A stretch of DNA of 64,000 bases, taken from assembly GCF_016653355.1 (NCBI RefSeq), contig NZ_NHSK01000156.1:1-64000 (forward strand). Reading direction: 5' to 3'. The notes below the pieces were generated by a model. The model did no database searches. It saw only the letters and a program-made list of their open reading frames with translations, and had not been told where the DNA came from. The DNA comes from Rhodoplanes elegans (GTDB taxonomy: Bacteria > Pseudomonadota > Alphaproteobacteria > Rhizobiales > Xanthobacteraceae). Position 1 is the first letter of the stretch. Each line of letters starts with the position of its first letter. A program made the translations under genes and the position numbers. Positions 36,919 to 63,796 of the stretch are shown here, piece by piece.

Positions 36919-37854
36919 TTATTCCGCGTCCTTGTCCTTCTCCGCCTTCGCCGTGCCGCCCGGCTGCCAGGCCGCGACCGTCGCGAGGTCGGTCTCCACG
37001 CTCCAGCGGCCCGGCTTTCCCGGGCGGGCGGCGGCGTCGGCGAGCAGGGCGCGGAACTCGCTCCGCGGCACCGTGCGGAATCCCATGTCCAGGATGGTGG
37101 GCGTCGGCCACTTGCCGTCGTCGAGCAGGAAGCCCCACTGCGCCAGATGCCAGTGCAGCACCGTGAAGCCGATCTTCGAGGTGTTGGGCTCGTGCGAGAA
37201 CTGCGACTCGGTGAAGAAGGCGCCGCCGGCCGCCACCCCGTAGCCGCCGCCGACCAGCTCGCCCGCCTCGTTCCACACCTCGAAGGAGTGGACATGGCCG
37301 GCGTCGAACGCCTCGGCATAGAGCCGCATGATCCGCGGCGTGATCCAGGTGAGATGCCAGCGCCCCGCCCGGCGCCCCGCGCAGGCCGTGATCACGCCCT
37401 CGAAGTCGCGGTCGAACGTGACGCTATACCGGCCCTGCCGCATCTGGCGGCGCAGCCGCTTGGCGATGTGCAGCTCGTCGAGCAGCAGGATGCAGCGCTC
37501 GGTGGGCGAAATCCATTTCAGCGGCCCGACATGGGCGAACGGGAACAGGCCGCGCCCATAGGCCGCCGTCAGCGTCGCGGGCGAGGCGTCGTCGACGATG
37601 CCGCACACCCCGAACGGGTTCACGGTACGGTCCGGATCGGGCAGGCCCGCGGGTCGACCGAGGAGGTCGCGCGCCCACAGCCGCGCCAGGCCCGGCAGTC
37701 CTTTCGCACGCGGGCCTTTCAGCGACCAGGCCGTGCCGAGCGCGATGCGCTGAAGCCGCTGGGCGGGGCTTTCCCGGAACAGGGCGCGGCGGCGGGCGTC
37801 CGCGTCGGCGCCCGCGTCGGGGCAGGGGGTGGCGACGGCCGGGGACAGGGGCAT
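36919..37854 (-). CDS. Leucyl/phenylalanyl-tRNA-protein transferase-like
   Basis: 311 residues. The C-terminal 220 match the Aat fold: [53 protein letters not shown] and the conserved [20 protein letters not shown]. This enzyme adds Leu or Phe to N-degron proteins. The N-terminal about 85 residues are an extension without known domain. The WxSP motif differs slightly from the canonical W-x-S-P-x-x-R (here KWISPTERC). It could be the canonical Aat or a longer alphaproteobacterial paralogue. Confidence 0.75.
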
Positions 37855-38035
37855 GGCAGGCTCGCTTCGCGCGCGGGACGGGCGCTCGTCGGCCGGATCA
37901 TCGCCGGTCCGCCTTTCGGGACTATTACGAAGGAGCGAGCACGACGGAGCGAGACGCCGCTTCGCCCACGATTTCACCGTGGGTTGCGGGCGGCCCGGAT
38001 TGCGGCGGAGCCCCCGATCCGCTAACCCCAGCGCC

Positions 38036-39586
38036 ATGAAACACGACAAGATCCTCATCGTCGACTTCGGCTCCCAGGTCACCCAGCTCATCGCCCGCCG
38101 GGTGCGCGAGGAGGGGGTCTATTCCGAGATCGTGCCCTACCAGAAGGCGGCCGAGGCCTACGCCGCGATGCGCCCGAAGGGCATCATCCTGTCGGGCGGC
38201 CCCGCCTCGGTGCACGAGGAGGGGGCGCCGCTGCCGCCGACCTCGCTCTACGAGGCCGGCGTGCCGATCCTCGGCATCTGCTACGGCGAGCAGGCGATGG
38301 CCCACCAGCTCGGCGGCCTGGTCGAGGGCGGCCACCACCGCGAGTTCGGCCGCGCCGAGGTGCAGGTCACCGACGAGTGCCTGTTGGTCGACGGCATCTG
38401 GCAGGTCGGCGAGAAGTATCCGGTGTGGATGAGCCACGGCGACCGCGTCACCCGCCCACCCGAGGGCTTCAAGGTGGTCGGCACCTCGCCGAACGCGCCG
38501 ATCGCGATCATCGCCGACGAGACCCGCCATTTCTACGGCACCCAGTTCCACCTCGAGGTGATGCACACGCCGCACGGCGCGCTGCTGCTGCGCAACTTCG
38601 TGCGCAAGGTCGCGGGTTGCGAGGGCGACTGGACGATGCGCACCTTCAAGGAGGAGGCGATCGAGAAGCTGCGCGCCCAGGTCGGCGACGGCAAGGTGAT
38701 CTGCGGCCTCTCGGGCGGCGTCGACTCGGCGGTCGCCGCCGTGCTGCTGCACGAGGCGATCGGCAACCAGCTCACCTGCGTCTTCGTCGACCACGGGCTT
38801 CTGCGCCGCGGCGAGGCCAAGCGGGTGATCGCGATGTTCCGCGGCCACTACAACATCCCGCTCGTCCACGTGAACGCGCGCGAGCAGTTTCTTGCCGCGC
38901 TCGACGGCGTCACCGACCCGGAAGACAAGCGAAAGATCATCGGCAAGGCTTTCATCGACATCTTCGAGGAGGAGGCCAAGAAGCTCGGCGGCGCCGAGTT
39001 TTTGGCACAGGGCACGCTCTATCCGGACGTGATCGAGAGCGTCTCGGCGACCGGCGGCCCGTCGGTGACGATCAAGTCGCACCACAATGTCGGCGGCTTG
39101 CCCGAGCGCATGAACATGAAGCTCGTCGAGCCGCTGCGCGAATTGTTCAAGGACGAGGTCCGCGCGCTCGGCCGTGAGCTCGGGCTGCCCGACGTGTTCG
39201 TCGGCCGCCACCCGTTCCCGGGCCCCGGCCTCGCGATCCGCTGCCCGGGCGAGATCACGGCCGAGAAGCTGGAGATCCTCCGGTATGCGGACGAGATCTA
39301 CATCGAGGAGATCCGTCGCGCCGGCCTCTACGACGACATCTGGCAGGCCTTCGCGGTGCTCCTCCCGGTCAAGACCGTCGGCGTGATGGGCGACGGCCGC
39401 ACCTACGACTACGTCGTCGCGCTGCGCGCCGTCACCTCGACGGACGGCATGACGGCCGACTTCTACCCCTTCGACATGAAGTTTTTAGGCCACGCCGCCA
39501 CCCGCATCATCAACGAGGTGAAGGGCGTGAACCGCGTGGTCTACGACGTGACGAGCAAGCCGCCCGGGACGATCGAGTGGGAATGA
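38036..39586 (+). CDS. guaA: GMP synthase (glutamine-hydrolysing)
   Basis: 516 residues. Class I glutamine amidotransferase domain ([20 protein letters not shown], catalytic Cys in ILGICYGEQ, His-Glu in FHLEVMHT), then the ATP pyrophosphatase domain with P-loop [14 protein letters not shown] and the C-terminal dimerisation part ending [12 protein letters not shown]. Converts XMP to GMP with glutamine and ATP. Its 3' end is the left border of a genomic island; the reading frame is intact, so GMP synthesis is preserved. Confidence 0.96.
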
Positions 39587-39712
39587 TTCAGGCCCATCCG
39601 GCGCTATCCCAAAGCACGCCAGAATACGCCGCAACGCACTGATAAAACAAATAAAATAAGCCAAAGACGTTCGGGAACTATCGGTCGGCAGAGATCGCCG
39701 CTGACGTACTCC

Positions 39713-39864
39713 CTGACGGTACGGCTCCCCGTTGCGAAATCTGATTTCATCCGATACCGTCAGCGTCTGGGCACCGTGTGACGGTCTTTTTTGTGACCTA
39801 AGATACTGTAATAAAAAGAGATTTAGTCGCTCAGGGTCCAGAAAACGGCCTGACGGTCTTTTTT
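39713..39864. promoter_or_regulatory. Repeated motifs upstream of the guaA-island integrase
   Basis: TGACGGTCTTTTTT at 39779-39792 and 39851-39864, CTGACGGT at 39713-39720, and its reverse complement ACCGTCAG at 39756-39763. Positions between guaA and the integrase suit integrase arm sites or autoregulation. The second copy is about 17 bp from the integrase start. Confidence 0.55.
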
Positions 39865-39880
39865 CGAGGAGGCGGCCCAA

Positions 39881-41161
39881 ATGCTGACGGACTCAGCGCT
39901 TAAGCACCTGAAACCAAAAGACAAAATTTATAAGGTGACGGATCGGGACGGCATGTACGTGCTGGTGAAGCCATCCGGGACACTCACCTTTCGGATGGAC
40001 TACCGGATGAATGGGCGGCGCGAGACCGTCACCTTCGGGAAGTACGGTCCTGCGGGGCTGTCCCTCGCTCGAGCACGAGAGCTGTGCATCGACGCCAAGC
40101 GGGCGATCAGCGAGGGACGATCGCCGGCGATCGAAAAGCAGCGGGAGAAGCGTCGGCTCTTGGAAGCGAAGAGCTTTGGTCAGTTCGGCGAGAAATGGCT
40201 GACCGCGGGGCCGATGGCGGACAGTACGCGGGCGATGCGCCGGTCAATCTTCGAGCGCGAGCTGCTGCCGAAGTGGCGCAACAGGCTGCTGACCGAGATC
40301 ACACCGGATGACCTCCGGGCTCTTTGCGGGGCGATCGTCGAGCGGGGCGCGCCCGCCACGGCGATCCACGTCCGCGACATCGTCAAGCAAATCTACGGCT
40401 TCGCGATCCTGCACGGGGAGAAGGTCGCCAATCCCGCTGATGATGTGGGGCCGTCCTCGATCGCGACATTCGTGCCGAAGGACCGATCGCTCTCGCCTAC
40501 TGAGATCAGGATCATGCTCAAGCTGATTGAGAAGGTCGCGACACTGCCGACAATCAGGCTCGGCATGCGCCTCTACCTACAGACCATGGTGCGCAAGAGC
40601 GAGCTGCAGGACGCCACGTGGGACGAAGTCGATTTCGAGAATGCCGTGTGGACGATTCCGAAGGAGCGCATGAAGCGTTCGAAGGCGCACAACGTGTATC
40701 TGTCGCGGCAAACACTCGACATCATGATCGCGCTGAAGACCTGCGCAGGGAATTCGCGATACCTGTTGCCGTCGCGGTACGACGCGGATGCGCCGATGTC
40801 GCGCGCGACGTTCAACCGGGTAACCTACTCGGTTGTTGAACTGGCGAAGAAGGAAGGTCTGCCACTCGAGCCATTCACGGTTCACGATCTCCGAAGGACG
40901 GGATCCACGCTGCTCAACGAGCTCGGTTTCAATAGCGACTGGATCGAGAAGTGTCTTGCGCACGAGGATGGTCGTTCGTCACGTGGCGTCTATAACAAGG
41001 CGGAGTACGAAGTTCAGCGTCGCCACATGATGCAGGAGTGGTCGGACATTATCGACGCCTGGGTCGCTGGGAAGAAGCGCGTCCCGGTACTCATCCCGCC
41101 CTCGATGCCGCTGCTTGAACCCGACCCGGCTCTCGAACAGGGCGCGACCGCCGCTGCCTGA
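39881..41161 (+). CDS. int: Tyrosine-type integrase (P4-like), guaA site
   Basis: 426 residues with N-terminal DUF4102 arm-binding domain (LTDSALKHLKPKDKIYKVTD, VTFGKYGPAGLSLARARELC). Catalytic elements: YLQTMVRKSELQDATWDEVD (Arg), HDLRRTGSTLLNE, CLAHEDGRSSRGVYNKAEY (Tyr). The integrase targets the guaA 3' end, judged from position. AGGAGG 8 bp before the ATG. Its end overlaps the antisense AlpA gene. Confidence 0.9.
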   Translation: MLTDSALKHLKPKDKIYKVTDRDGMYVLVKPSGTLTFRMDYRMNGRRETVTFGKYGPAGLSLARARELCIDAKRAISEGRSPAIEKQREKRRLLEAKSFGQFGEKWLTAGPMADSTRAMRRSIFERELLPKWRNRLLTEITPDDLRALCGAIVERGAPATAIHVRDIVKQIYGFAILHGEKVANPADDVGPSSIATFVPKDRSLSPTEIRIMLKLIEKVATLPTIRLGMRLYLQTMVRKSELQDATWDEVDFENAVWTIPKERMKRSKAHNVYLSRQTLDIMIALKTCAGNSRYLLPSRYDADAPMSRATFNRVTYSVVELAKKEGLPLEPFTVHDLRRTGSTLLNELGFNSDWIEKCLAHEDGRSSRGVYNKAEYEVQRRHMMQEWSDIIDAWVAGKKRVPVLIPPSMPLLEPDPALEQGATAAA

Positions 41162-43099: not shown

Positions 43100-43277
43100 T
43101 TAAGCTGCCCATCCGAAATATACGACAGGGTACGCTATGGTACTCTATCTATCTGATCTGACTGGATTTTCAAAAAGCCGAGGAGCACGTTGTTATCCGA
43201 CACTGCGCTGCAATTTCCGCCCGGGTGCTTACGTGGTGCTTACGCGAGAAGTCGGCGTGGCGATCTGAGAGAATGTG

Positions 43278-44636
43278 ATGGCCAAGATCACCAAGAGGGT
43301 CGCCGACGCCGCCGAAGTGCGGGAGAAGGACTACGTCATTTGGGATGACGAGTTGCCCGGCTTCGGCCTCCGCGTTTTCACCTCGGGCAAGCGAAGCTAC
43401 GTCATCCAATATCGTGCAGGTGGTCGCTCGCGTCGCTACACCATAGGCCTTCACGGAGTCTGGACCCCGGAGACGGTCCGTCAGGAGGCGAAGATCCAAT
43501 TCGGCCGGATCGCGCAGGGCAACAATCCCGCCGAGGAACGGCACCTCGATCACAAGGCGCTCACCGTCAAGGAACTTTGCACATTGTACATGGCGGATCT
43601 CGAGGCTGGTCTCATCCTCGGGAAAGGCGGACGGTCAAAGAAGCCGAGCACTATCACCGTCGACGTCGGCCGCATCCACCGGCACATCATCCCGCTGATC
43701 GGCATGCGGCGCGTGAAGGATCTGACGAAGGCTGACATTAACAAGGTCCTGAAGGACATCATGGCTGGAAAGACCCGGGTGTCCGTCAAAACCAAAAAAC
43801 TTCGCGGCAAGGCCATCGTGCGAGGTGGAGCTGGAACCGCAACCCGAACGGTCGGCTTGCTTGGTGGTATTCTCACCTATGCCGTCGAAGCCGGCATCAT
43901 AGAGAGCAATCCGGCACACGGCATCCGCAAGCCGAAAGACAATGTGCGAACGCGTCGTTTGTCTGAAGCGGAGTATCGCATCCTCGGCCAGATGCTGCGC
44001 GACGCGGCGAGGCAAGAAAAATACATTACGACTGTGGACATCATTCGTCAGATTGCTCTGACAGGTTGCCGACGCAGCGAGATGATCCACTTAAAATGGT
44101 CGGAGGTCGACAGCGAGGCGAGCTATCTGCGCCTGCATGACAGCAAGGAAGGAAAATCGATTCGCGCAGTCGGTCTGCCGGTCATTGAGTATTTCGATTG
44201 CCGGCGCTTGGGCGCCGTTGGCACTTATGTTTTTCCCGGGCAGGGCGAGGACAATGCGTTCGGCAGCTTCTCGAACCACTGGGAGCAGATCTTCAAAAAG
44301 TCGCCGCTGTCGGATGTCACGCCGCACGTGCTGCGTCATAGCTTCGCTAGCATCGCGAACGACCTGGGATTCACCGAAGTCACGATCGCAGCCTTGGTAG
44401 GCCACTCAAAGGGGTCCGTTACGAGCAAATACATCCACACTCTCGACACGGCGCTCGTGATGGCTGCGGACACGATCGCGGGCTACATCCAAGGCCTGCT
44501 CGATGGCATTGAGTTCAAGCACACGGCGTATGCACTTGATCGTGACTCACGAAAGGCGGCACTTGCGCGTTTCTTGAGCAGGGCAGTTGGAGAACAAAGT
44601 ATCGCGGGCGAAGCTGACGCGCGCTGGGCTGCCTGA
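43278..44636 (+). CDS. int: Second tyrosine-type integrase (DUF4102 family)
   Basis: 452 residues. ITKRVADAAEVREKDYVIWD and SYVIQYRAGGRSRRYTIGLH form the arm-binding domain; ALTGCRRSEMIHLKWSEVD, VTPHVLRHSFASIANDLGF and LVGHSKGSVTSKYIHT hold the catalytic Arg, His-Arg and Tyr. It is not close to the first integrase in sequence, so it belongs to a separate or nested element. GTGCTTACG occurs twice just upstream (about 43225-43245), possible arm sites. No clear partner attachment repeat was seen. Confidence 0.9.
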   Translation: MAKITKRVADAAEVREKDYVIWDDELPGFGLRVFTSGKRSYVIQYRAGGRSRRYTIGLHGVWTPETVRQEAKIQFGRIAQGNNPAEERHLDHKALTVKELCTLYMADLEAGLILGKGGRSKKPSTITVDVGRIHRHIIPLIGMRRVKDLTKADINKVLKDIMAGKTRVSVKTKKLRGKAIVRGGAGTATRTVGLLGGILTYAVEAGIIESNPAHGIRKPKDNVRTRRLSEAEYRILGQMLRDAARQEKYITTVDIIRQIALTGCRRSEMIHLKWSEVDSEASYLRLHDSKEGKSIRAVGLPVIEYFDCRRLGAVGTYVFPGQGEDNAFGSFSNHWEQIFKKSPLSDVTPHVLRHSFASIANDLGFTEVTIAALVGHSKGSVTSKYIHTLDTALVMAADTIAGYIQGLLDGIEFKHTAYALDRDSRKAALARFLSRAVGEQSIAGEADARWAA

Positions 44637-54798: not shown

Positions 54799-56676
54799 AT
54801 GCAGTTCAGTAAGGAAACGACGTTCAACATCTGGTACGTCGTTGCGGCCATTTTTGGCGTGTTGCTGATCCAGCATTTCTGGATCGAGAGCCAGCGCGTC
54901 GAGCCCATCCCCTATAGCGAATTCGAGCGTTACCTCGATGATGGAAAGATCAACAACATCGTTGTCGGCAATCAGTTCATCCGCGGTTACTTCAAGGAAC
55001 CGCGCGAAGGTCGCACGCAATTTGTCACCACGCGGGTCGATCCGGCTTTGGCCCAGAAGCTTGCGGAAAAAGGCGTACGCTTTACTGGCGCCGTCGAAAG
55101 CACGTTTCTGCGCGACGTTCTTTCCTGGGTGCTTCCCATCCTGCTTTTCTTCGGCCTGTGGATGTTCGTGTTCCGGCGGATTGCCGAGAAGCAGGGGCTG
55201 GGCAATTTCCTGCCGATCGGCAAGAGCAAGGCCAAGGTCTATGTAGAGAAGGATATCAAGGTCACGTTCAACGACGTCGCCGGCGTCGATGAAGCCAAGG
55301 AAGAACTGAAGGAGGTCGTCGCTTTTCTGCGGGCGCCGCAGGACTATGGCCGGCTCGGAGCACGCATCCCGAAGGGCGTCCTCCTGGTGGGACCGCCCGG
55401 CACCGGCAAGACGTTGCTCGCGCGCGCGATCGCAGGCGAGGCCGGAGTGCCGTTTTTATCGATCAACGGCTCCGAGTTCGTGGAGATGTTCGTCGGTGTT
55501 GGGGCGGCGCGCGTGCGCGACCTGTTCGAGCAGGCGAGAAGCATGGCGCCATGCATTATATTCATCGATGAGCTCGACGCCCTCGGTAAGGCGCGTGGCG
55601 CGTTTCCCGCGGTCGGAGGTCATGACGAGCGCGAACAGACGCTTAATCAGCTTCTGGTTGAGTTGGATGGCTTCGATCCGGCCCAGGGCATCGTTCTCCT
55701 GGCCGCCACCAACCGGCCGGAAATTCTCGATCCGGCCCTTTTGCGCGCGGGCCGCTTCGATCGCCAGGTTCTCATCGACCGTCCTGACAAGACGGGACGT
55801 GTGCAGATTCTCAAGGTGCACATGCGCAAAGTGACGCTGGCCGAGGATGTCGACGCGGAAAAGATCGCGGCTCTGACCACGGGATTTACCGGCGCCGACC
55901 TCGCCAATCTGGTCAACGAAGCCGCCCTCCTGGCCACCCGCCGGGGCGCGTCGGCGGTGGCCATGCAGGATTTTACCGCGGGCGTCGAACGCATCGTTGC
56001 GGGTCTGGAAAAGAAGAATCGACTGCTCAATCCGGACGAACGAAAGGTTGTTGCTTATCACGAGATGGGCCATGCGCTGGTGGCGCTGGCGATGTCCAAG
56101 ACCGATGCCGTGCACAAGGTCTCGATCATTCCGCGCGGGGTGGGCGCGCTTGGCTATACGATTCAGCGGCCGACCGAGGACCGCTATTTGATGACCCGCG
56201 ACGAACTCGAAGCCAAAATCGCTGTTCTGTTGGGCGGACGCGCGGCCGAAAAATTGGTGTTTGGCAAGCTCTCGACCGGCGCCGCCGACGATCTCGCCAA
56301 GGTGACCGACATCGCGCGCAATATGGTCGTGCGCTACGGCATGGACGAAACTCTCGGCTATGTCGTGTACGAACCCGAACGGCCCTCGTTTTTGGGCAAC
56401 GTTCCGGGCCCGGCGCCAAACGAGCGTCATTTCAGCGAAGCAACGGCCGAAACGATCGACGCAGCCGTGAAGTCGATCGTGCATGCGGTATTCGACCGGA
56501 CGACCGCAATCCTTACGGCCAACCGTGACGTTCTGGAGCGATGCGTCAAATCCCTGCTCGAAAAAGAGACCTTGAACGAAGACGAACTGCGCGAACTCAC
56601 CCGCGACCTGCGCTTGTCGGACGCTCAGGCCGTACCTTCGCTGGCTGTGACGGCAGCGCAAGTCGCGAGGACGTGA
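54799..56676 (+). CDS. ftsH: FtsH-family AAA+ membrane protease
   Basis: 625 residues. Two membrane helices flank a periplasmic loop ([20 protein letters not shown] and [20 protein letters not shown]). AAA+ core: Walker A GPPGTGKT at residue 198, Walker [34 protein letters not shown]. Zinc site HEMGH (residues 421-425; most FtsH proteins have HEAGH) with downstream Asp. It is shorter at the C-terminus than chromosomal FtsH copies. Degrades misfolded membrane and soluble proteins. The second FtsH is a known part of P. aeruginosa clone C stress islands. Confidence 0.95.
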
Positions 56677-56679
56677 CCG

Positions 56680-57417
56680 ATGTTTCCGATCCAAAACGGC
56701 GTACCGCACCGCAGCGCGCCATTCGTAACCTGGAGCCTGATCGCGATCAACGTAGCTGTGTTTCTTTACCAGGTCAGTCTTCCGGCACCGGCGCTGGATC
56801 GATTCCTGGTGGAATACGCACTCATTCCCGGACGCTATTTCGTTCCGCTGCCCTTTCTGCCCGAGCCCACGCTTCAGGATTATCTACCGTTTCTCACCAA
56901 CATGTTCCTGCACGGCGGTTGGCTGCATCTGATCTTGAACATGTGGACGTTGTTTCTGTTCGGGCCGACGGTCGAAGATCGAATGGGAAGAAGCCGCTAC
57001 CTGCTTTTCTATTTGATTTGCGGGATCGCTGCCTCGACAGCGCATGCGTATTTTAATGCAACATCGTTTGTTCCGGCTTTGGGCGCCTCCGGTGCGATCG
57101 CCGGCGTCATCGGCGCCTTCGTCCGTCTTTTTCCGCTGGCGAATTTGATCGTCGTCATTCCGATCTTCTTCTTTCCGTTCTTTTTTGAAGTTCCGGCACT
57201 TTTGTTCGCTGGATTGTGGTTTCTCATGCAATTCGTGCAAGGAACGATCGAGCTTGTCAGCCCCTCGACGGGGGGCGGCATCGCGTGGTGGGCGCATATC
57301 GGCGGATTCATAGCCGGCGTGCTGCTGACATCGCTTCTGACGCGACCGCGACGAACCTATCGCAAATACTACCTCGACGAAGGAATCTATGGTTTCACGC
57401 CGAATGGCCGACGCTAA
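56680..57417 (+). CDS. Rhomboid-family intramembrane serine protease
   Basis: 245 residues, six to seven membrane helices. Catalytic Ser137 in ALGASGAIAG and His206 in IAWWAHIGGF; conserved HGGWLHLILNMWTL. Starts 3 bp after ftsH. Cleaves transmembrane substrates; in this operon probably joins FtsH in membrane-protein quality control. Confidence 0.9.
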   Translation: MFPIQNGVPHRSAPFVTWSLIAINVAVFLYQVSLPAPALDRFLVEYALIPGRYFVPLPFLPEPTLQDYLPFLTNMFLHGGWLHLILNMWTLFLFGPTVEDRMGRSRYLLFYLICGIAASTAHAYFNATSFVPALGASGAIAGVIGAFVRLFPLANLIVVIPIFFFPFFFEVPALLFAGLWFLMQFVQGTIELVSPSTGGGIAWWAHIGGFIAGVLLTSLLTRPRRTYRKYYLDEGIYGFTPNGRR

Positions 57418-57438: not shown

Positions 57439-58269
57439 ATGAGCTTTAATGATATCTTTTGGCTGTTCTTCATGTTCACGGCCCTGCAGCCCCTGCTGCG
57501 GCAGCGCATGCTGGAGGCGATGCGAACACGAAAAATAGCGCAGATCGAACGCGATCGGAACTCCCGCGTGATCCTGCTGGTGCATCGGCAGGAAACAATG
57601 CGACTGCTTGGCTTTCCGCTGATGCGTTACATCGACGTGAACGACTCCGAGGATGTCCTGCGCGCCATTCACATGACTGATGACGAAGTGCCGCTCGACA
57701 TCGTGCTTCACACCCCCGGCGGTCTCGTGCTTGCCGCTTTGCAGATTGCGCGCGCAATCCGCGCGCACAAGGCGAAAGTCACCGTCTTCGTGCCTCATTA
57801 TGCGATGTCGGGCGGTACGCTCATTGCACTCGCGGCCGATGAGATCGTCATGTGCCGACATTCCGTGCTCGGCCCCATCGACCCGCAGCTCGGACAATCG
57901 CCCGCTGCCTCTCTGCTCAAGGTGGTCGAGCAGAAGCCGATTGCAGAGATCGACGATCAGACCCTGCTCCTTGCGGATGTCGGCCGCAAGGCTATCGCCC
58001 AGGTCAAGGCGGCGGCGAAGGAGCTTCTTGCCGACAAGATGGCCGAGGACAAGGCTGAAGCGCTCGCTGAAAAGCTATCGACCGGACAATGGACGCACGA
58101 CTATCCGATTTCGCCCACGGAGGCCAAAGACCTGGGCCTTCCGGTCAGCACGAACATGCCGGACGCCGTGCTTGAGCTGATGACCCTTTATCCCCAGCCG
58201 GTGCGGTCGCAGGGGGGCGGGGTCGAATATCTCCCGGTGCCGCGCCAGAAGGAAGCGTTGCGAAAGTGA
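57439..58269 (+). CDS. SDH-family Clp-fold serine proteinase
   Basis: 276 residues with an N-terminal membrane anchor (FNDIFWLFFMFTALQPLLRQ). Clp/crotonase-fold motifs: DIVLHTPGGLVLAALQIARA and the Ser in HYAMSGGTLIALAADEIVM; then HSVLGPIDPQLGQSPAASLL. This is the serine dehydrogenase proteinase family (PF01972-like). Membrane-bound peptidase in the same operon as rhomboid and FtsH, suggesting that cleavage products pass from one to the other. Confidence 0.85.
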   Translation: MSFNDIFWLFFMFTALQPLLRQRMLEAMRTRKIAQIERDRNSRVILLVHRQETMRLLGFPLMRYIDVNDSEDVLRAIHMTDDEVPLDIVLHTPGGLVLAALQIARAIRAHKAKVTVFVPHYAMSGGTLIALAADEIVMCRHSVLGPIDPQLGQSPAASLLKVVEQKPIAEIDDQTLLLADVGRKAIAQVKAAAKELLADKMAEDKAEALAEKLSTGQWTHDYPISPTEAKDLGLPVSTNMPDAVLELMTLYPQPVRSQGGGVEYLPVPRQKEALRK

Positions 58270-58322
58270 CTTGAACCAGTGCAGCCAGAGATAAGTCGGC
58301 GGCGCAGCAGATGGAGCCAATT

Positions 58323-58811
58323 ATGAAATTGCTCGAACACTTGGACATCAAGACAACGCAATGGGAGGTGGCCAGCGCCTACGAGAAGTTCGAGCAAGTG
58401 GTCGTTCTCATTCTGACCGGCCTGATCATCGTCGTTATCGCCACCGCGGTCTGGCATCTGGCAATTAAGGTCCTGTTCGGTCTCGTGCTGGCCAGCTTTG
58501 ATCCGACAGAACCCGCCGTTTTCCAGACAATCTTTGGGATGATTTTTACCGTGATTATCGCGCTCGAATTCAAGCATTCCATCCTGATTATGGTGAAACG
58601 CGAACAAAGCGTCGTGCAGGTGCGCACGGTCGTCCTGATTGCAATGCTGGCTGTGATCCGGAAATTCATTATCATTGATATTTCCGCAGCGACCGCAAAT
58701 CAGATGTTCGCATTGGCGGCTGGGGTTATCGCGCTCGGCGCCGTCTATTGGCTCGTCCGCGATCAGGACCGAAAGGCCGAGATCGCAGAGCGAGAGAGGC
58801 AGACAACATGA
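58323..58811 (+). CDS. psiE: PsiE-like membrane protein
   Basis: 162 residues, four membrane helices (FEQVVVLILTGLIIVVIATA, AVFQTIFGMIFTVIIALEFK, VVLIAMLAVIRKFIIIDISA, FALAAGVIALGAVYWLVRDQ). The pattern EFKHSI and VRKFIIID is typical of PsiE family. PsiE is phosphate-starvation inducible in E. coli and a fixed member of stress-tolerance islands; mechanism unknown. Start 58323 has GGAG upstream; ATG 58311 is alternative. Ends with ATGA overlap to the next gene. Confidence 0.85.
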   Translation: MKLLEHLDIKTTQWEVASAYEKFEQVVVLILTGLIIVVIATAVWHLAIKVLFGLVLASFDPTEPAVFQTIFGMIFTVIIALEFKHSILIMVKREQSVVQVRTVVLIAMLAVIRKFIIIDISAATANQMFALAAGVIALGAVYWLVRDQDRKAEIAERERQTT

Positions 58812-59248
58812 GTCAACACGTCACACATATCGTTTGCCCGCATTGCGATGCCGTCAACCGGATTCCGGCAGATAAGCCGTCCAAAGAGGCCAAATGCGGC
58901 CGCTGTCATCGTACGCTTTTTGACGGCCACCCGGCGGAAGTCACAAACGAACAGCTTGAGAAGCACATCAAGTCAAACGAAATCCCGGTCGTCGTCGATT
59001 TTTGGGCGCCATGGTGCGGACCCTGCCGCATGATGGCTCCCGCTTATGAGCGTGCTGCCGGACAACTGGAGCCGAACGCGCGGTTGCTGAAGTTGAACAC
59101 CGAGAATGAACCAGACGCTGCCCAGCGTTACAGCATAAGTTCGATTCCAACCCTGATCATGTTCCGTAACGGCCAGGTTATCGATCGTATGAGCGGGGCC
59201 ATGGACGAACGCCGCCTTCATCAATGGATTATGTCACACGCGCATTGA
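58808..59248 (+). CDS. trxC: Thioredoxin 2-like protein with N-terminal zinc ribbon
   Basis: 146 residues. Zinc-binding Cys10-x2-Cys13 and Cys30-x2-Cys33 at the N-terminus, then the thioredoxin fold with WCGPC (Cys70, Cys73) and SSIPTLIMFRNG (cis-Pro). Reduces disulfides in the cytoplasm; the zinc ribbon is the TrxC hallmark and makes it oxidative-stress tuned. In gammaproteobacterial islands a thioredoxin holds the same place. Confidence 0.9.
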   Translation: MSQHVTHIVCPHCDAVNRIPADKPSKEAKCGRCHRTLFDGHPAEVTNEQLEKHIKSNEIPVVVDFWAPWCGPCRMMAPAYERAAGQLEPNARLLKLNTENEPDAAQRYSISSIPTLIMFRNGQVIDRMSGAMDERRLHQWIMSHAH

Positions 59249-59281: not shown

Positions 59282-59944
59282 ATGACGCGTCGACGAAAAC
59301 CTGAAGCCGACATTTCAAAAGCTGAAGACGATCCGGTGATCGAAGCGGATATCGAGTCTTTCCCTGCGAGCGATCCGCCGGCCTGGATTCCCGCGCGCAT
59401 CGGTCCTGCCGTGCCAATTCGGCCTGAGGAGCTTTCAAGTGCTCGAAATGAGGAGAAAACCATGCATGACACCCGAATCGATTTGCCGTCCAACGTCCGT
59501 GGAACTGTCATCGGGTTGCTTCAGGCACGCCTAGCGGACGCCGCTGATCTTGCGAGCCAAGCCAAACAAGCCCATTGGAACGTCAAGGGACCAAGCTTTA
59601 TAGCGCTGCACGAACTGTTCGATCAAGTCGCAACGACCGTGCGTGAGCATACGGACATGATCGCCGAACGCATCACAACGCTTGGCGGTACGGCCGAGGG
59701 CACGGTACGAGCGGCTGCCAAGCAATCGACACTGAAAGAATACCCTATCGATATCATTGAAGGGCGTGCCCACGTCGCCACCCTTGCGGATGCGCTTGCC
59801 TCATTCGGCGCAAAGGTCCGAAGCAACATCGAGGAGGCGGCAGAGGCTGGTGACCAGGGAACCGCCGACCTGTTTACCGAGATATCGCGAAGTATCGACA
59901 AGACACTTTGGTTTGTTGAAGCCCACGGACAGGCGAAGTCATGA
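59282..59944 (+). CDS. dps: Dps-family ferritin-like DNA-protection protein
   Basis: 220 residues, or 160 from the ATG at 59462 (AGGAG upstream), which matches normal Dps length. Dps motifs: LLQARLADAADLASQAKQAH, HWNVKGPSFIALHELFDQVA and AERITTLGGTAEGTVR, with the ferroxidase His/Asp/Glu. The 60-residue N-terminal part (ESFPASDPPAWIPARIG) is a short motif known from other small proteins and may be a separate, coupled or fused peptide. Stores iron and protects DNA from oxidants. Confidence 0.85.
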   Translation: MTRRRKPEADISKAEDDPVIEADIESFPASDPPAWIPARIGPAVPIRPEELSSARNEEKTMHDTRIDLPSNVRGTVIGLLQARLADAADLASQAKQAHWNVKGPSFIALHELFDQVATTVREHTDMIAERITTLGGTAEGTVRAAAKQSTLKEYPIDIIEGRAHVATLADALASFGAKVRSNIEEAAEAGDQGTADLFTEISRSIDKTLWFVEAHGQAKS

Positions 59945-60055
59945 GCCTTTGAAACGATGGAATCGCCCAAGAAGAAGCCGCACATCTGTTGCTCACCCGA
60001 AACGCCTAAAGGCGACAACTCTTCATTTCCTTAGAAAGCAGAGACGCAATTGCAG

Positions 60056-60979
60056 ATGACCGCAAACTCGGGCCAAAACGCCAATCATTTCGGCTGGAAC
60101 ATCGTCACGCACGGCCTGCATGGACATCCGTTTCTGCGCCAGAAGATTCACAGTAAGATTCGAACCCTTGAAAGGCATCTGCAGCGTTTCCCGGCGGATG
60201 CAGTACATCTTCTCATTGAGCTTGAACGACATCCCCGCAAGGAAGAACACCGCGCCGTTTTGACGCTTCGGCTCCCGTCGCACATTCTGCATGCTGACAA
60301 GTCGGCAAAATCGGTCATTGCCGCCTTGTCGAGCGCGGTGAAGGCGCTTCTGGAAGAATTAAGGGATCTCAAAGAGAGGCTGCGGGAAGAGCCACAATGG
60401 AAGCGCAAGACGAGGCGCAATAAACTGTCTTTCTCTTCCGTGCCGAGAGAGAGCGGCGCGGAGCCGCAAAGTGCTACTGCAATGCGCGAAGCCTTCGTTG
60501 AAAGTCATCGTAGCCGTTTGACGCGGTTTGCGCGCAGAGTTGCCAATCGCGCTCGCAGCCAAGGCGACCAGATCACCGACCGCGAGCTTGCGGAATTAGT
60601 CGGGGAGGCAGAAGACAAGCTGGCGGCTTTGTCGAAACGTCAAAAGCCGACAAATGATCGCGCGCAGCTCTATCGCCTCGTCCGCGAGGCGATCGCACAG
60701 CGCGGCGGCGGCTCACGAAAAGAGCATACTCCGAGTGCGCCCTCATCGCCGACCGAAGGAACCTCTCCAAAATCCGGTTTGTTGTCGGCGATGGATCAGG
60801 TGCTAGCTACATTATCCCCCTTCGAGCAAGAAGTTTTCGATTTGCATTACGTCGAAGGCTTCGAGACCTACGAGATCGCAATGATCGCCCGAAAGCCGGA
60901 GAGTCAGGTTAAGGACGCTATTCAGGCCATCGAGAATCAAATCCGCGGGAGCCTGCGGTCCGAGCCGGTTGAGAAATAG
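60056..60979 (+). CDS. HPF/RaiA-like domain fused to a sigma-70 region 4-like domain
   Basis: 307 residues. Residues about 8-120 form a ribosome-hibernation (S30AE) domain: WNIVTHGLHGHPFLRQKIHS, VHLLIELERHPRKEEHRAVL, HADKSAKSVIAALSSAVKAL. A charged linker follows, then LSAMDQVLATLSPFEQEVFD, LHYVEGFETYEIAMIARKPE and SQVKDAIQAIENQIRG, a sigma-70 region 4 helix-turn-helix. No region 2 is visible, so it is not a complete sigma factor. A TTG at 60050 is an alternative start. It might tie ribosome hibernation to transcription. Confidence 0.75.
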   Translation: MTANSGQNANHFGWNIVTHGLHGHPFLRQKIHSKIRTLERHLQRFPADAVHLLIELERHPRKEEHRAVLTLRLPSHILHADKSAKSVIAALSSAVKALLEELRDLKERLREEPQWKRKTRRNKLSFSSVPRESGAEPQSATAMREAFVESHRSRLTRFARRVANRARSQGDQITDRELAELVGEAEDKLAALSKRQKPTNDRAQLYRLVREAIAQRGGGSRKEHTPSAPSSPTEGTSPKSGLLSAMDQVLATLSPFEQEVFDLHYVEGFETYEIAMIARKPESQVKDAIQAIENQIRGSLRSEPVEK

Positions 60980-61016
60980 CAACATAGCACCGAAGGGGTG
61001 CTAGGGAGTCGATGCC

Positions 61017-61433
61017 ATGGCACTTGGCGATATCGAGCGATGGATGTGGGCAGACGCTTGCGATCTCCTGGCTCGCGCGGAGCGCCTACATCGTCAATTT
61101 TTCACGCCTCTTGCCGTCGAAGGTGCAATCGGTTGGTCGCCACCTGTTGACCTGTATGAGACGGAAAGCGAATTCATAGCGCTAATCGCGTTGCCTGGCG
61201 TGGCCCCGGGCGATGTCGAGATCAGGCTCCTGGGGCGGACGCTTGAAGTGCGTGGCCATCGTCGGCTACCGGCATTGGTTAGAGGCGCGGCCATTCATCG
61301 GCTTGAGATTCCTCAGGGACGTTTTTTGCTTCGATTCACGCTTCCCGAGGCGGCCGCAGCGCTTGCGGCGCGGGGGTTTGAGGATGGCTGCCTCCTTCTC
61401 CGTCTCGCCAAATCGGCACAAGGCGCAAAATGA
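61017..61433 (+). CDS. Small heat-shock protein (Hsp20), coupled to lon
   Basis: 138 residues. The alpha-crystallin domain (WSPPVDLYETESEFIALIAL to GFEDGCLLLRLAKSA) is present but degenerate; the usual G-V-L becomes G-C-L. An ATGA overlap with lon shows translational coupling, which suggests it hands substrates to Lon. Fourth Hsp20 of the island. Confidence 0.85.
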   Translation: MALGDIERWMWADACDLLARAERLHRQFFTPLAVEGAIGWSPPVDLYETESEFIALIALPGVAPGDVEIRLLGRTLEVRGHRRLPALVRGAAIHRLEIPQGRFLLRFTLPEAAAALAARGFEDGCLLLRLAKSAQGAK

Positions 61434-63796
61434 TGAACGAACAAGTCTCGCCATCAAAAAACCAGAGCAACACCGAGCTCCCGCCGGGCGCATTGATCTT
61501 GCTGCCCGTGCGCAACATGGTGCTGTTTCCCGGCGTTGTGATGCCGCTGACGGTGGGGCGGCCACGCTCTCAGGCCGCCGCCCAGGAAGCATTGCGCGGT
61601 GAGCGGCCGATCGGCATCGTGTTGCAAACCGATCCGACAGTGGACGAGCCGGGCGACGAGCAGCTTCATCGTATCGGCACGGTCGCGGAAATCCTGCGCT
61701 ACGTGACGGCGCCGGACGGCACCCATCATCTGATCGTCCGCGGCACGCGCCGGTTTCGCATCCAAAGCGTCTTGCCAGGATATCCCTTTCTGGCCGCGCA
61801 GGTGGAGGAAATCGGGGAATCCGAAGTTCTCACGCCGGAAATTGAAGGCCGGATGCAATTGCTGCGACAGCGGGCTCACGAGGCCATGCAGCTCTTGCCG
61901 AACGTGCCGGCGGAGCTTGTCGCGGGACTCGACGGAGTTCAGTCCGCCGCGGCGCTGGCCGACTTCGTCGCCAACCTGATGGACATCAAGCCTGCGGATA
62001 AGCAGGACATCCTCGAAACATTCGACGTCAAAACGCGGCTCGACAAGACCATTCGGTTCCTGACCGAGCGGATTCAGGTGCTCCGCATCAGCAAGGAGAT
62101 TGGCGAGCAGACGCAGGAAACACTCAGTACGCAGCAACGCGAGCATATCCTGCGCGAGCAGATGCGACAGATCCAGCGTCAACTCGGCGAATCCGACGAT
62201 CGGTCCGCGGAACTGGAAGAATTGAAGCGCGCCATCGAAGCGGCCGGAATGCCGAAGGAGGTCGAGGATCAGGCCGAGAAGGAGCTGCGGCGTCTCGAGC
62301 GGATGCCGGATGCCGCCGGCGAGTACTCGATGATCCGCACCTATCTCGACTGGCTGATTGAATTGCCGTGGTCAAAGCTTGCCGAGGAGAGAATCGACAT
62401 TCCAGAGGCGCGCCGCATCCTCGACGAGGACCACTACGATCTGGACAAGGTCAAGAAACGCATCCTCGAATACCTCGCGGTGCGCAAGCTCAATCCGGAT
62501 GGCAAGGCGCCTATTCTATGTTTTGTCGGCCCGCCGGGCGTGGGCAAGACCTCGCTCGGCCAGAGCATCGCCCGGGCGACCGGACGTCCCTTCGCGCGCC
62601 TGAGCCTCGGCGGCGTTCACGACGAGGCGGAAATTCGCGGTCACCGCCGAACCTATATCGGTGCGCTGCCCGGCAACATTATTCAGGCCATTCGCAAGGC
62701 AGGCGCCCGCAATCCGGTCCTGATGCTCGATGAGATGGACAAGCTCGGCGCCGGTTTTCACGGCGACCCGTCATCGGCCCTTCTCGAAGTGCTCGATCCC
62801 GAGCAGAACCGCACGTTCCGCGACAACTATCTAGGCCTGCCCTTCGACCTGTCGAAAGTGCTGTTCATCGGAACCGCCAATATTCCGGACAGCATTCCCG
62901 GTCCTCTGCGTGACCGCATGGAGATGATCTCGGTCCCCGGTTACACCGAAGACGAAAAACTGCAGATCGCCAAGCGCTACCTCGTCAAGCGGCAGTTCGA
63001 TGCGGCCGGGCTGAAGCCCGAGCAATGCGAGATCGCCGACGAGGCGCTCCTTGGAATCATCCGGCATTACACGCGGGAAGCCGGCTGCCGTAACCTGGAG
63101 AGAGAAATCGGAGCACTCTGCCGCCACGCTGCGATGCGGATTGCCGAGGGCAAAGATATTGCGGTCAAGATTGGCGAGGAGGACTTGACGACGGTTCTCG
63201 GGCCCCATCGCTTCGAGGATGAAGTCGCGATGCGCACCAGCGTGCCTGGTGTTGCCACCGGACTTGCCTGGACGCCGACCGGCGGCGACATCCTGTTCAT
63301 CGAGGCGGCGCGCGTGCCCGGAAGCGGCAAGCTCATTCTGACGGGGCAACTTGGCGACGTGATGAAGGAGAGTGCGCAGGCGGCACTCAGTCTTGTCAAA
63401 TCCCGTGCCGAGAGCCTCGGTATCGACGTCGCCCAATTCGAAAAGTCCGACGTCCACGTTCATGTGCCTGCCGGTGCCATCCCGAAGGACGGCCCGAGTG
63501 CGGGCGTTGCCATGTTCATCGCCTTGACCTCGCTGCTTACCGGCCGTACGGCACGAAGCGACACCGCGATGACAGGCGAGATTTCGCTTCGTGGACTGGT
63601 TCTTCCGATCGGCGGTGTCAAGGAAAAGGTCCTCGCTGCGGTGCGGGCAGGCATCGAAACGGTCATGCTTCCCGAACGAAACAAGAAGGATCTCGAAGAT
63701 GTCCCTTCTGATGCGCGGCAACGGATCAAATTCGTTTGGATGAAGACCGTTGACGATGCTGTCGCCGCGGCACTTGAACCGCCTAAGGGCAAGTAA
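61430..63796 (+). CDS. lon: Lon ATP-dependent protease
   Basis: 788 residues. LON substrate-binding N-terminus (LILLPVRNMVLFPGVVMPLT), coiled coil, AAA+ with Walker A GPPGVGKTS at residue 367 and Walker B PVLMLDEMDKL, then the Ser-Lys protease domain: Ser690 in PKDGPSAGVAMF and the catalytic Lys in GGVKEKV about 42 residues later. Complete. It is probably an extra copy beside the chromosomal lon. Degrades damaged and regulatory proteins in the cytoplasm. Not a usual member of the gammaproteobacterial cassette. Confidence 0.95.
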   Translation: MMNEQVSPSKNQSNTELPPGALILLPVRNMVLFPGVVMPLTVGRPRSQAAAQEALRGERPIGIVLQTDPTVDEPGDEQLHRIGTVAEILRYVTAPDGTHHLIVRGTRRFRIQSVLPGYPFLAAQVEEIGESEVLTPEIEGRMQLLRQRAHEAMQLLPNVPAELVAGLDGVQSAAALADFVANLMDIKPADKQDILETFDVKTRLDKTIRFLTERIQVLRISKEIGEQTQETLSTQQREHILREQMRQIQRQLGESDDRSAELEELKRAIEAAGMPKEVEDQAEKELRRLERMPDAAGEYSMIRTYLDWLIELPWSKLAEERIDIPEARRILDEDHYDLDKVKKRILEYLAVRKLNPDGKAPILCFVGPPGVGKTSLGQSIARATGRPFARLSLGGVHDEAEIRGHRRTYIGALPGNIIQAIRKAGARNPVLMLDEMDKLGAGFHGDPSSALLEVLDPEQNRTFRDNYLGLPFDLSKVLFIGTANIPDSIPGPLRDRMEMISVPGYTEDEKLQIAKRYLVKRQFDAAGLKPEQCEIADEALLGIIRHYTREAGCRNLEREIGALCRHAAMRIAEGKDIAVKIGEEDLTTVLGPHRFEDEVAMRTSVPGVATGLAWTPTGGDILFIEAARVPGSGKLILTGQLGDVMKESAQAALSLVKSRAESLGIDVAQFEKSDVHVHVPAGAIPKDGPSAGVAMFIALTSLLTGRTARSDTAMTGEISLRGLVLPIGGVKEKVLAAVRAGIETVMLPERNKKDLEDVPSDARQRIKFVWMKTVDDAVAAALEPPKGK

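Follow-up and report, generated by a model that had tools for sequence, protein, structure and literature searches.

The window, a 64,000-nucleotide stretch of Rhodoplanes elegans DNA, carries in a stress island the gene of a 307-residue protein, P0001, in which an N-terminal S30AE domain of the ribosome-hibernation (HPF/RaiA) family is followed by a C-terminal domain akin to region 4 of ECF sigma factors (Table 1). The analysis directly establishes this domain arrangement, the recurrence of the arrangement, its place in stress islands and the charge reversal in the recognition helix. The best reading, favoured here tentatively, is that of a sigma mimic linked to a domain of ribosome hibernation and not of a sigma factor that itself reads −35 elements; the way in which it would work is proposed below. 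The first-pass annotation of this DNA knew of no characterised protein of this architecture, and no paper joining a hibernation domain to a sigma domain was found in the open-access literature.

Table 1. The S30AE-sigma fusion gene of the window, its parts and its neighbours
Feature	Position	Strand	Remark
FtsH	54799..56676	+	Same island
Rhomboid protease	56680..57417	+	Same island
SDH-type ClpP-fold protease	57439..58269	+	Same island
PsiE family protein	58311..58811	+	Same island
Thioredoxin TrxC	58808..59248	+	Same island
Dps gene	59282..59944	+	Upstream, 111 nt before the fusion
S30AE-sigma fusion gene P0001, 307 aa	60056..60979	+	Single open frame, ATG to stop; relatives share the same start ATG
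S30AE (HPF/RaiA) domain, residues 15-110	60098..60385	+	Pfam PF02482, 36.0 bits; same position in whole-genome search
Basic KRKTRR motif directly after the S30AE domain, residues 116-121	60401..60418	+	Alignments
Helical middle region, residues about 140-217	60473..60706	+	Possible sigma region-2 remnant, putative
ECF-type sigma region-4 domain, residues about 238-301	60767..60958	+	Profile and fold matches
−35 recognition helix in acidic form, residues 282-296	60899..60943	+	Net charge −2; helix charge comparison
7-bp hairpin in the 37-nt gap between fusion and hsp20	60985..61003	.	Listed as terminator-like on the − strand only
Hsp20 gene	61017..61433	+	Downstream, 37 nt after the fusion
Lon protease gene	61430..63796	+	4-nt overlap with hsp20

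The gene is open from the ATG at 60056 to the stop at 60979, the one frame of 307 codons that the first-pass annotation had described. Comparison with an 80%-identical paralogue (L002) gives a dN/dS of 0.167 overall, with 0.108 for residues 1-125, 0.256 for residues 126-235 and 0.176 for residues 236-307; judged from these ratios, both ends of the gene are under purifying selection. A chance or frame artefact is ruled out by the overall ratio together with the conservation of both ends in relatives. The fusion is not a matter of chance, because distant proteins repeat this two-domain arrangement, with related N-terminal halves and independently sigma-related C-terminal halves. These relatives fall into short forms, P0001 among them, and long forms such as L003 (449 residues as called, with an S30AE match of 24.3 bits), which carry a conserved E-F/Y-x-QPD-D/E linker that the short form lacks.

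The HPF/RaiA-type N-terminal part proposed at first pass is upheld by both domain and profile searches. Pfam S30AE matches P0001 at an E value of 1.2e-8 and 36.0 bits, above the curated cut-off of 23.7. This cut-off is passed by seven of the 20 members scanned, and 16 of the 20 match at E up to 0.01; four of the 20, namely three orf11 proteins and L064, gave no direct Pfam S30AE match. A profile of four N-terminal rows (the window protein, two 79% relatives and one long form) finds HPF-family proteins among PDB sequences at E values of 2.8e-5 to 4.2e-5. Its best seven PDB sequences all belong to the HPF/YfiA family, the HPFs of Listeria and E. coli scoring 2.8e-5 to 3.7e-5, and the P0001-family profile matches nearly the whole length of E. 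coli HPF. The AF2 model of this half, used to look for the beta-alpha-beta-beta-beta-alpha fold of the S30AE family, is of low confidence (pLDDT 63, pTM 0.45). With it, Foldseek ranks HPFs first and second, yet only at E 0.063, and VIA-align gives HPF rows Z scores of 3.8-4.5 with the best unrelated row at 5.7, and thus does not single out HPFs. At the position of the KRKTRR motif, KRxxRR or RRxxRR is present in all 23 fusion proteins compared. A basic net charge where the S30AE domain ends was rejected as a marker, being non-discriminating in a loose alignment (+1 to +8 in 23 of 23 members versus +1 to +6 in five other S30AE proteins). By membership of the S30AE family, P0001 would be expected to bind ribosomes. 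Long HPF bears a C-terminal PF16321 dimerisation domain; P0001, in contrast, has no PF16321 match at E up to 0.1 and carries the sigma-like module in its place. The only other S30AE protein found in the genome of the window (L053 1252-1830, contig C61) has a cold-shock-like C-terminal stretch at 22.2 bits, below the cut-off of 27.

The C-terminal half was likewise described at first pass as sigma-70 region 4-like, and several lines of comparison agree. Sigma70_r4_2 aligns with residues 245-289 of P0001 at E 5.2e-5 and 23.3 bits, just below the cut-off of 25.7, which two 80%-identical relatives (L002 and L004) exceed at 27.5 bits, the S30AE cut-off being passed as well. Together with L038 and L044 these make four of the 20 members scanned that pass the Sigma70_r4_2 cut-off, and all four pass both curated cut-offs within one protein; PF04545 is above its own cut-off in L042 and L037. 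Against 29 sigma-4 controls, hhalign yields 97.3 for the short-form region 4 and 98.0 for the long-form one. The AF2 model of P0001 is poor overall (mean pLDDT 52). VIA-align superposes its residues 237-305 on region 4 of E. coli sigma-E with −35 DNA (2h27_D) with a Z score of 11.6 and an rmsd of 1.5 over 69 residues, making this structure the best fold neighbour of the C-terminal domain. A profile built from 17 long-form rows retrieves sigma factors at a best E of 6.2e-10, a protein of the HPF family at 3.2e-5 and the sigma-like domain of PhyR at 4.5e-5. An unrelated helix-turn-helix is ruled out for the C-terminal half of P0001 by the sigma-4 profile and fold matches. The sigma side of the family has been glimpsed before, since RefSeq/PLSDB annotation already calls several long forms sigma factors.

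Between the two domains of P0001, the AF2 model places helices at residues 140-168, 175-194 and 200-217 with low confidence, and a subthreshold TIGR02937 alignment spans residues 148-297. Taken alone, this middle stretch reaches an hhalign value of 6.4 against five ECF factors and 4.5 against the long forms, and a sigma region 2 in P0001 was dropped on this comparison. The corresponding long-form stretch reaches 53.8 against the five ECF factors. The whole-length ECF model TIGR02937 scores 44.3 bits in L003 and 42.9 bits in L007 versus a cut-off of 42.9, and most long forms retain a region 2.2-like motif, D-[LIV]-V-D-[EA] (for example DLVDAT or DIVDE). Pfam sigma region 2 (PF04542) is unlisted for any of the 20 members scanned at E up to 0.1, or up to 1 in one scan. 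The fusions thus have the fold and sequence of region 4 in common with ECF sigma factors (TIGR02937/Sigma70_r4_2), two long forms lying at or just above the ECF cut-off. Unlike those factors, they have an S30AE domain in front and an acidic recognition helix, and P0001 is without an established region 2.

In sigma-E, contacts to the −35 element are made by basic residues of the recognition helix. Controls for the charge of this helix were drawn from four genomes, at 30 of the 79 places with a Sigma70_r4_2 match at E up to 1e-5; one LuxR-type control was dropped, leaving 29 that are mostly ECF-type and were taken by profile match. The 15-residue helix is basic in all 29, with a net charge of +1 to +5 and a mean of 3.38. 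Among 23 fusion proteins aligned for the same purpose, L045 (unaligned) and L049 (partial) were dropped. Each of the remaining 21 (18 long and 3 short, several of them nearly identical), all fully aligned, has an acidic helix, with a net charge of −1 to −4 and of −2 in P0001, so the two ranges have zero overlap. The PhyR of the window genome has a helix of net charge 0. With its recognition helix acidic, the module is most naturally taken to have lost promoter recognition, and direct −35 reading by the region-4 domain is disfavoured on the same ground. The first-pass annotation had offered two roles for this domain: promoter control through −35 contact, which the charge comparison weakens, and an adaptor or anti-sigma-type function, which fits it better. 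Its interpretation as a whole is partly supported.

A module of sigma shape that does not read DNA has a precedent in PhyR, where it titrates an anti-sigma factor. Fusion members and PhyR are alike in a sigma-shaped module lacking a strongly basic recognition helix, and weak PhyR-domain matches occur in members: NF006623 at 29.2 bits (cut-off 240) in P0001, and in L043 PF22233 at 25.6 bits (cut-off 27; the highest among members) and PF22029 (PhyR_sigma2) at 20.1 bits. All such scores lie below the curated cut-offs. P0001 differs further in that Pfam gives no match to a response-regulator receiver domain; it is not a PhyR, because this domain is missing. In the window genome, PhyR and an ECF-type sigma gene lie about 1 kb apart on contig C153.

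The stress-operon setting seen at first pass is supported, with FtsH, rhomboid protease, SDH protease, PsiE, TrxC and Dps genes before the fusion and Hsp20 and Lon genes after it. Beyond lon follow MarC-type, Kef-type, DnaK and ClpB genes, mostly outside the window, and the island also has an HdeD-like DUF308 protein and DegP. The core of the tLST/LHR islands is named as dna-hsp20-clpK(clpG) in the part of PMC8290217 drawn on here. In a check for this core, the downstream ClpB scores 1408 bits, above its cut-off, and the ClpK and ClpG models remain below theirs. A promoter scan of 59900-61450 returned a single site, on the − strand inside the fusion gene, and Rfam and tRNA searches returned 0 hits each in the stretches searched. 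A phage-type integrase gene after guaA and a second integrase nearby (window 37829-41161 and 43275-44636) are consistent with insertion of an island beside guaA. A second tLST-like island on contig C2 of the same genome (L034 9983-15780) holds the other short copy; read by its frames, the start of its FtsH passes straight into sequence of the SDH protease with no rhomboid gene seen, unlike the R. serenus island (L032), in which FtsH, SDH protease and rhomboid are all present.

The first-pass annotation had suggested looking for fusions in other tLST-like islands, and S30AE-sigma fusions do occur in tLST/LHR-type stress islands of alpha-, beta- and gammaproteobacteria, with intact frames in all three classes. 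Besides the further short copy on C2, the window genome has one long form on C5. In five alphaproteobacterial long-form islands, the large AAA protein encoded next to the fusion resembles ClpK, with 1600-1610 bits where the cut-off of the model is 1900. The fusion lies between the ClpK-like AAA gene and HdeD in Paracoccus and Caulobacter; in Sphingobium, HdeD follows the fusion and the annotation shows no AAA gene upstream, and in Roseomonas an NDUS4-like gene separates the fusion from HdeD. Small NDUS4-like (complex I accessory) proteins near HdeD were seen in alphaproteobacterial islands at L035 12247-12807, L042 11750-12310, L045 8759-9298 and L048 5152-5733. On two Burkholderiaceae plasmids (L038 7986-13394 and L043 9001-14485), the fusion precedes GroES-GroEL-DnaK, with Hsp20 genes nearby on the opposite strand.

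The full fusion is rare in genome surveys. With L003 as query it was found in at least 3 of 385 genomes of the class (G000, G292 and G433), and with the long-form profile in at least 3 of 398 genomes of the phylum (G000, G997 and G1139); both surveys score at most four candidates per genome, which makes these counts lower bounds. In the phylum survey, a contig end falls inside the fusion gene of G854. Among the other 248 of the 252 phylum genomes that matched at all, G602 scores 93.5 bits; the remaining ones among the matches listed reach 46 bits or less, in the sigma part. A tblastn search of L003 against 72,556 plasmid records matched 86, in 17 of which a single place spans 80% or more of the query; P0001 as query gave no match to plasmid records. 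Viral contigs searched with P0001, L039, L043 and L044 gave no match, and query A3 alone gave one locus. Two further proteins, at L015 (1003 onward) and L065 (1384 onward), are sigma-like with a W-F/Y-QP-E/D linker resembling that of the long forms and have no S30AE match. The sigma-like module is separable, since such S30AE-less relatives exist.

Matches in Klebsiella and Acinetobacter are hypothetical proteins encoded just after hdeD-GI and, in Klebsiella, before trx-GI. They correspond to orf11 of the tLST, because this gene order agrees with that given in the consulted part of PMC8290217. In the excerpts used of the tLST/LHR literature (PMC7685784, PMC8290217, PMC5383660, PMC4563881 and PMC8407380), orf11 is described as hypothetical. 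Three orf11 proteins in Pfam have a weak sigma-4 match only and no S30AE. A combined alpha and beta N-terminal profile, searched against 2781 local open frames plus targets, still picks up all six orf11 N-termini at 50-59 bits alongside P0001 at 52.7 bits, and with the C-terminal profile orf11 scores about 130 bits. Along its whole length, Klebsiella orf11 aligns with Cupriavidus L044 at 32% identity (361 residues; E 3e-33, the local set searched being small). L044 in turn scores above both Pfam cut-offs, at 29.2 and 36.2 bits. On these comparisons orf11, in E. coli, Klebsiella and Acinetobacter, is assigned to the long forms. It has the same layout as P0001 and differs from it in its greater length, its EFYQPDD linker and an S30AE domain that lies below Pfam detection; orthology of the two sigma-like halves is unsupported by hhalign of short versus long halves. 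DNA like orf11 is present in 152 of 5426 complete E. coli genomes and at least 80% covered in 144, at 156 chromosomal and 44 plasmid places. Close copies differ by few changes with dN/dS of 0.60-0.67, and constraint is not apparent among them.

Whether short and long forms descend from one fusion event depends on the half considered. Whole proteins of the two forms align in hhalign at 98.4 over 280 columns, with decoys reaching 2.0 at best (120 of 300). This value is carried by the N-terminal halves, which align at 98.5; the C-terminal halves reach 10.7 and region 4 alone 37.5. A single family collinear throughout was accordingly rejected. By these alignments and those with the sigma-4 controls, the S30AE domains of both forms are one family and the C-terminal halves are each sigma-related. 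Compared by profile, both halves lie nearest to ECF factors, and a search with the short C-terminal profile retrieves an ECF factor and no long form. The fusion may have arisen twice, because hhalign does not tie the sigma-like halves to one lineage, or the two forms may be one diverged lineage. Findings on one form therefore need not hold for the other.

Several accounts of the fusion can be set against these data. A true, divergent ECF sigma factor would use S30AE as a regulatory sensor, held on or released from idle ribosomes, and would then direct core polymerase to stress promoters. This account is unlikely: the whole-length ECF matches of L003 and L007, the region 2.2-like motif, the ECF affinity of both C-terminal halves and the sigma-E fold neighbour on DNA all speak for it, and it is opposed by a helix that is acidic in every fully aligned member versus basic in every control, by the missing PF04542 and by scores of P0001 below the sigma cut-offs. 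Somewhat unlikely, too, is a pure hibernation factor without a role in transcription, in which the C-terminal module would stand in for the dimerisation domain of long HPF, linking ribosomes or shielding them. The module does occupy the position of that domain, PF16321 is absent from five of five genomes of the window's genus and found in five of five other genomes tested, the only other S30AE protein found in the window genome ends in a cold-shock-like stretch, and a loss of basic charge from the helix would be neutral. Replacement of long HPF nonetheless fails to explain the distribution, because G009, G053 and G100, of the same genus and without PF16321, have no P0001 match either and because long HPF and the fusion coexist in G184, G292 and G433. 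The occurrence of the long-form sigma-like module without S30AE (L065, L015) also argues against a purely ribosomal function.

That the gene is passenger cargo, decaying or without effect on its host, is improbable. In its favour, the portion of PMC8407380 relied on here names 7 of 13 genes, orf11 not among them, as required for resistance to heat or chlorine in an E. coli deletion series and reports membrane lipid oxidation as unchanged upon orf11 deletion, and LHR2 carries an interrupted orf11 according to the section used of PMC5383660. Against it stand the dN/dS of P0001 versus L002, with both ends constrained, and that of the long alphaproteobacterial copies L035 versus L031 (0.331), as well as the intact frames in three classes and the orf11-like DNA at least 80% covered in E. 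coli genomes. A ribosome-tethered sigma mimic is favoured, because a sigma-shaped module that, like the one of PhyR, probably does not read DNA is joined here to a domain from a family that docks on idle 30S subunits. The same deletion series and the interrupted copy count against this mimic as well, as do, at the level of sequence, the L003 score just past the ECF cut-off and the region 2.2-like motif of most long forms, as expected of a working sigma factor.

In the proposed working of the mimic, the S30AE domain would bind idle 30S subunits in their mRNA channel, and the sigma-shaped C-terminal module would act as a protein-binding sigma mimic. Docked and free states would show the sigma-like face differently to a partner, which could be an anti-sigma factor or RNA polymerase; both the binding of this partner and its coupling to ribosome binding are inferred. 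In cells under stress or in stationary phase, the quantity of idle ribosomes would thereby adjust stress-gene transcription, and the idle ribosomes themselves might be protected as well. It is possible, albeit doubtful, that such proteins form a novel type of stress regulator whose hibernation domain reports the idle-ribosome pool to transcription via a sigma decoy. This type would include orf11, may have originated twice (as short and as long forms) and would have been carried by islands and plasmids into three proteobacterial classes.

The part of the tLST/LHR review PMC8290217 drawn on gives no function for orf11 and describes the factors of island expression as not fully elucidated. The islands in question give heat and chlorine tolerance to food and hospital bacteria. 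With orf11 and its relatives recognised as S30AE-sigma fusions, the role of orf11 becomes testable. Should both halves prove functional, a single mobile protein would link ribosome hibernation with stress transcription.
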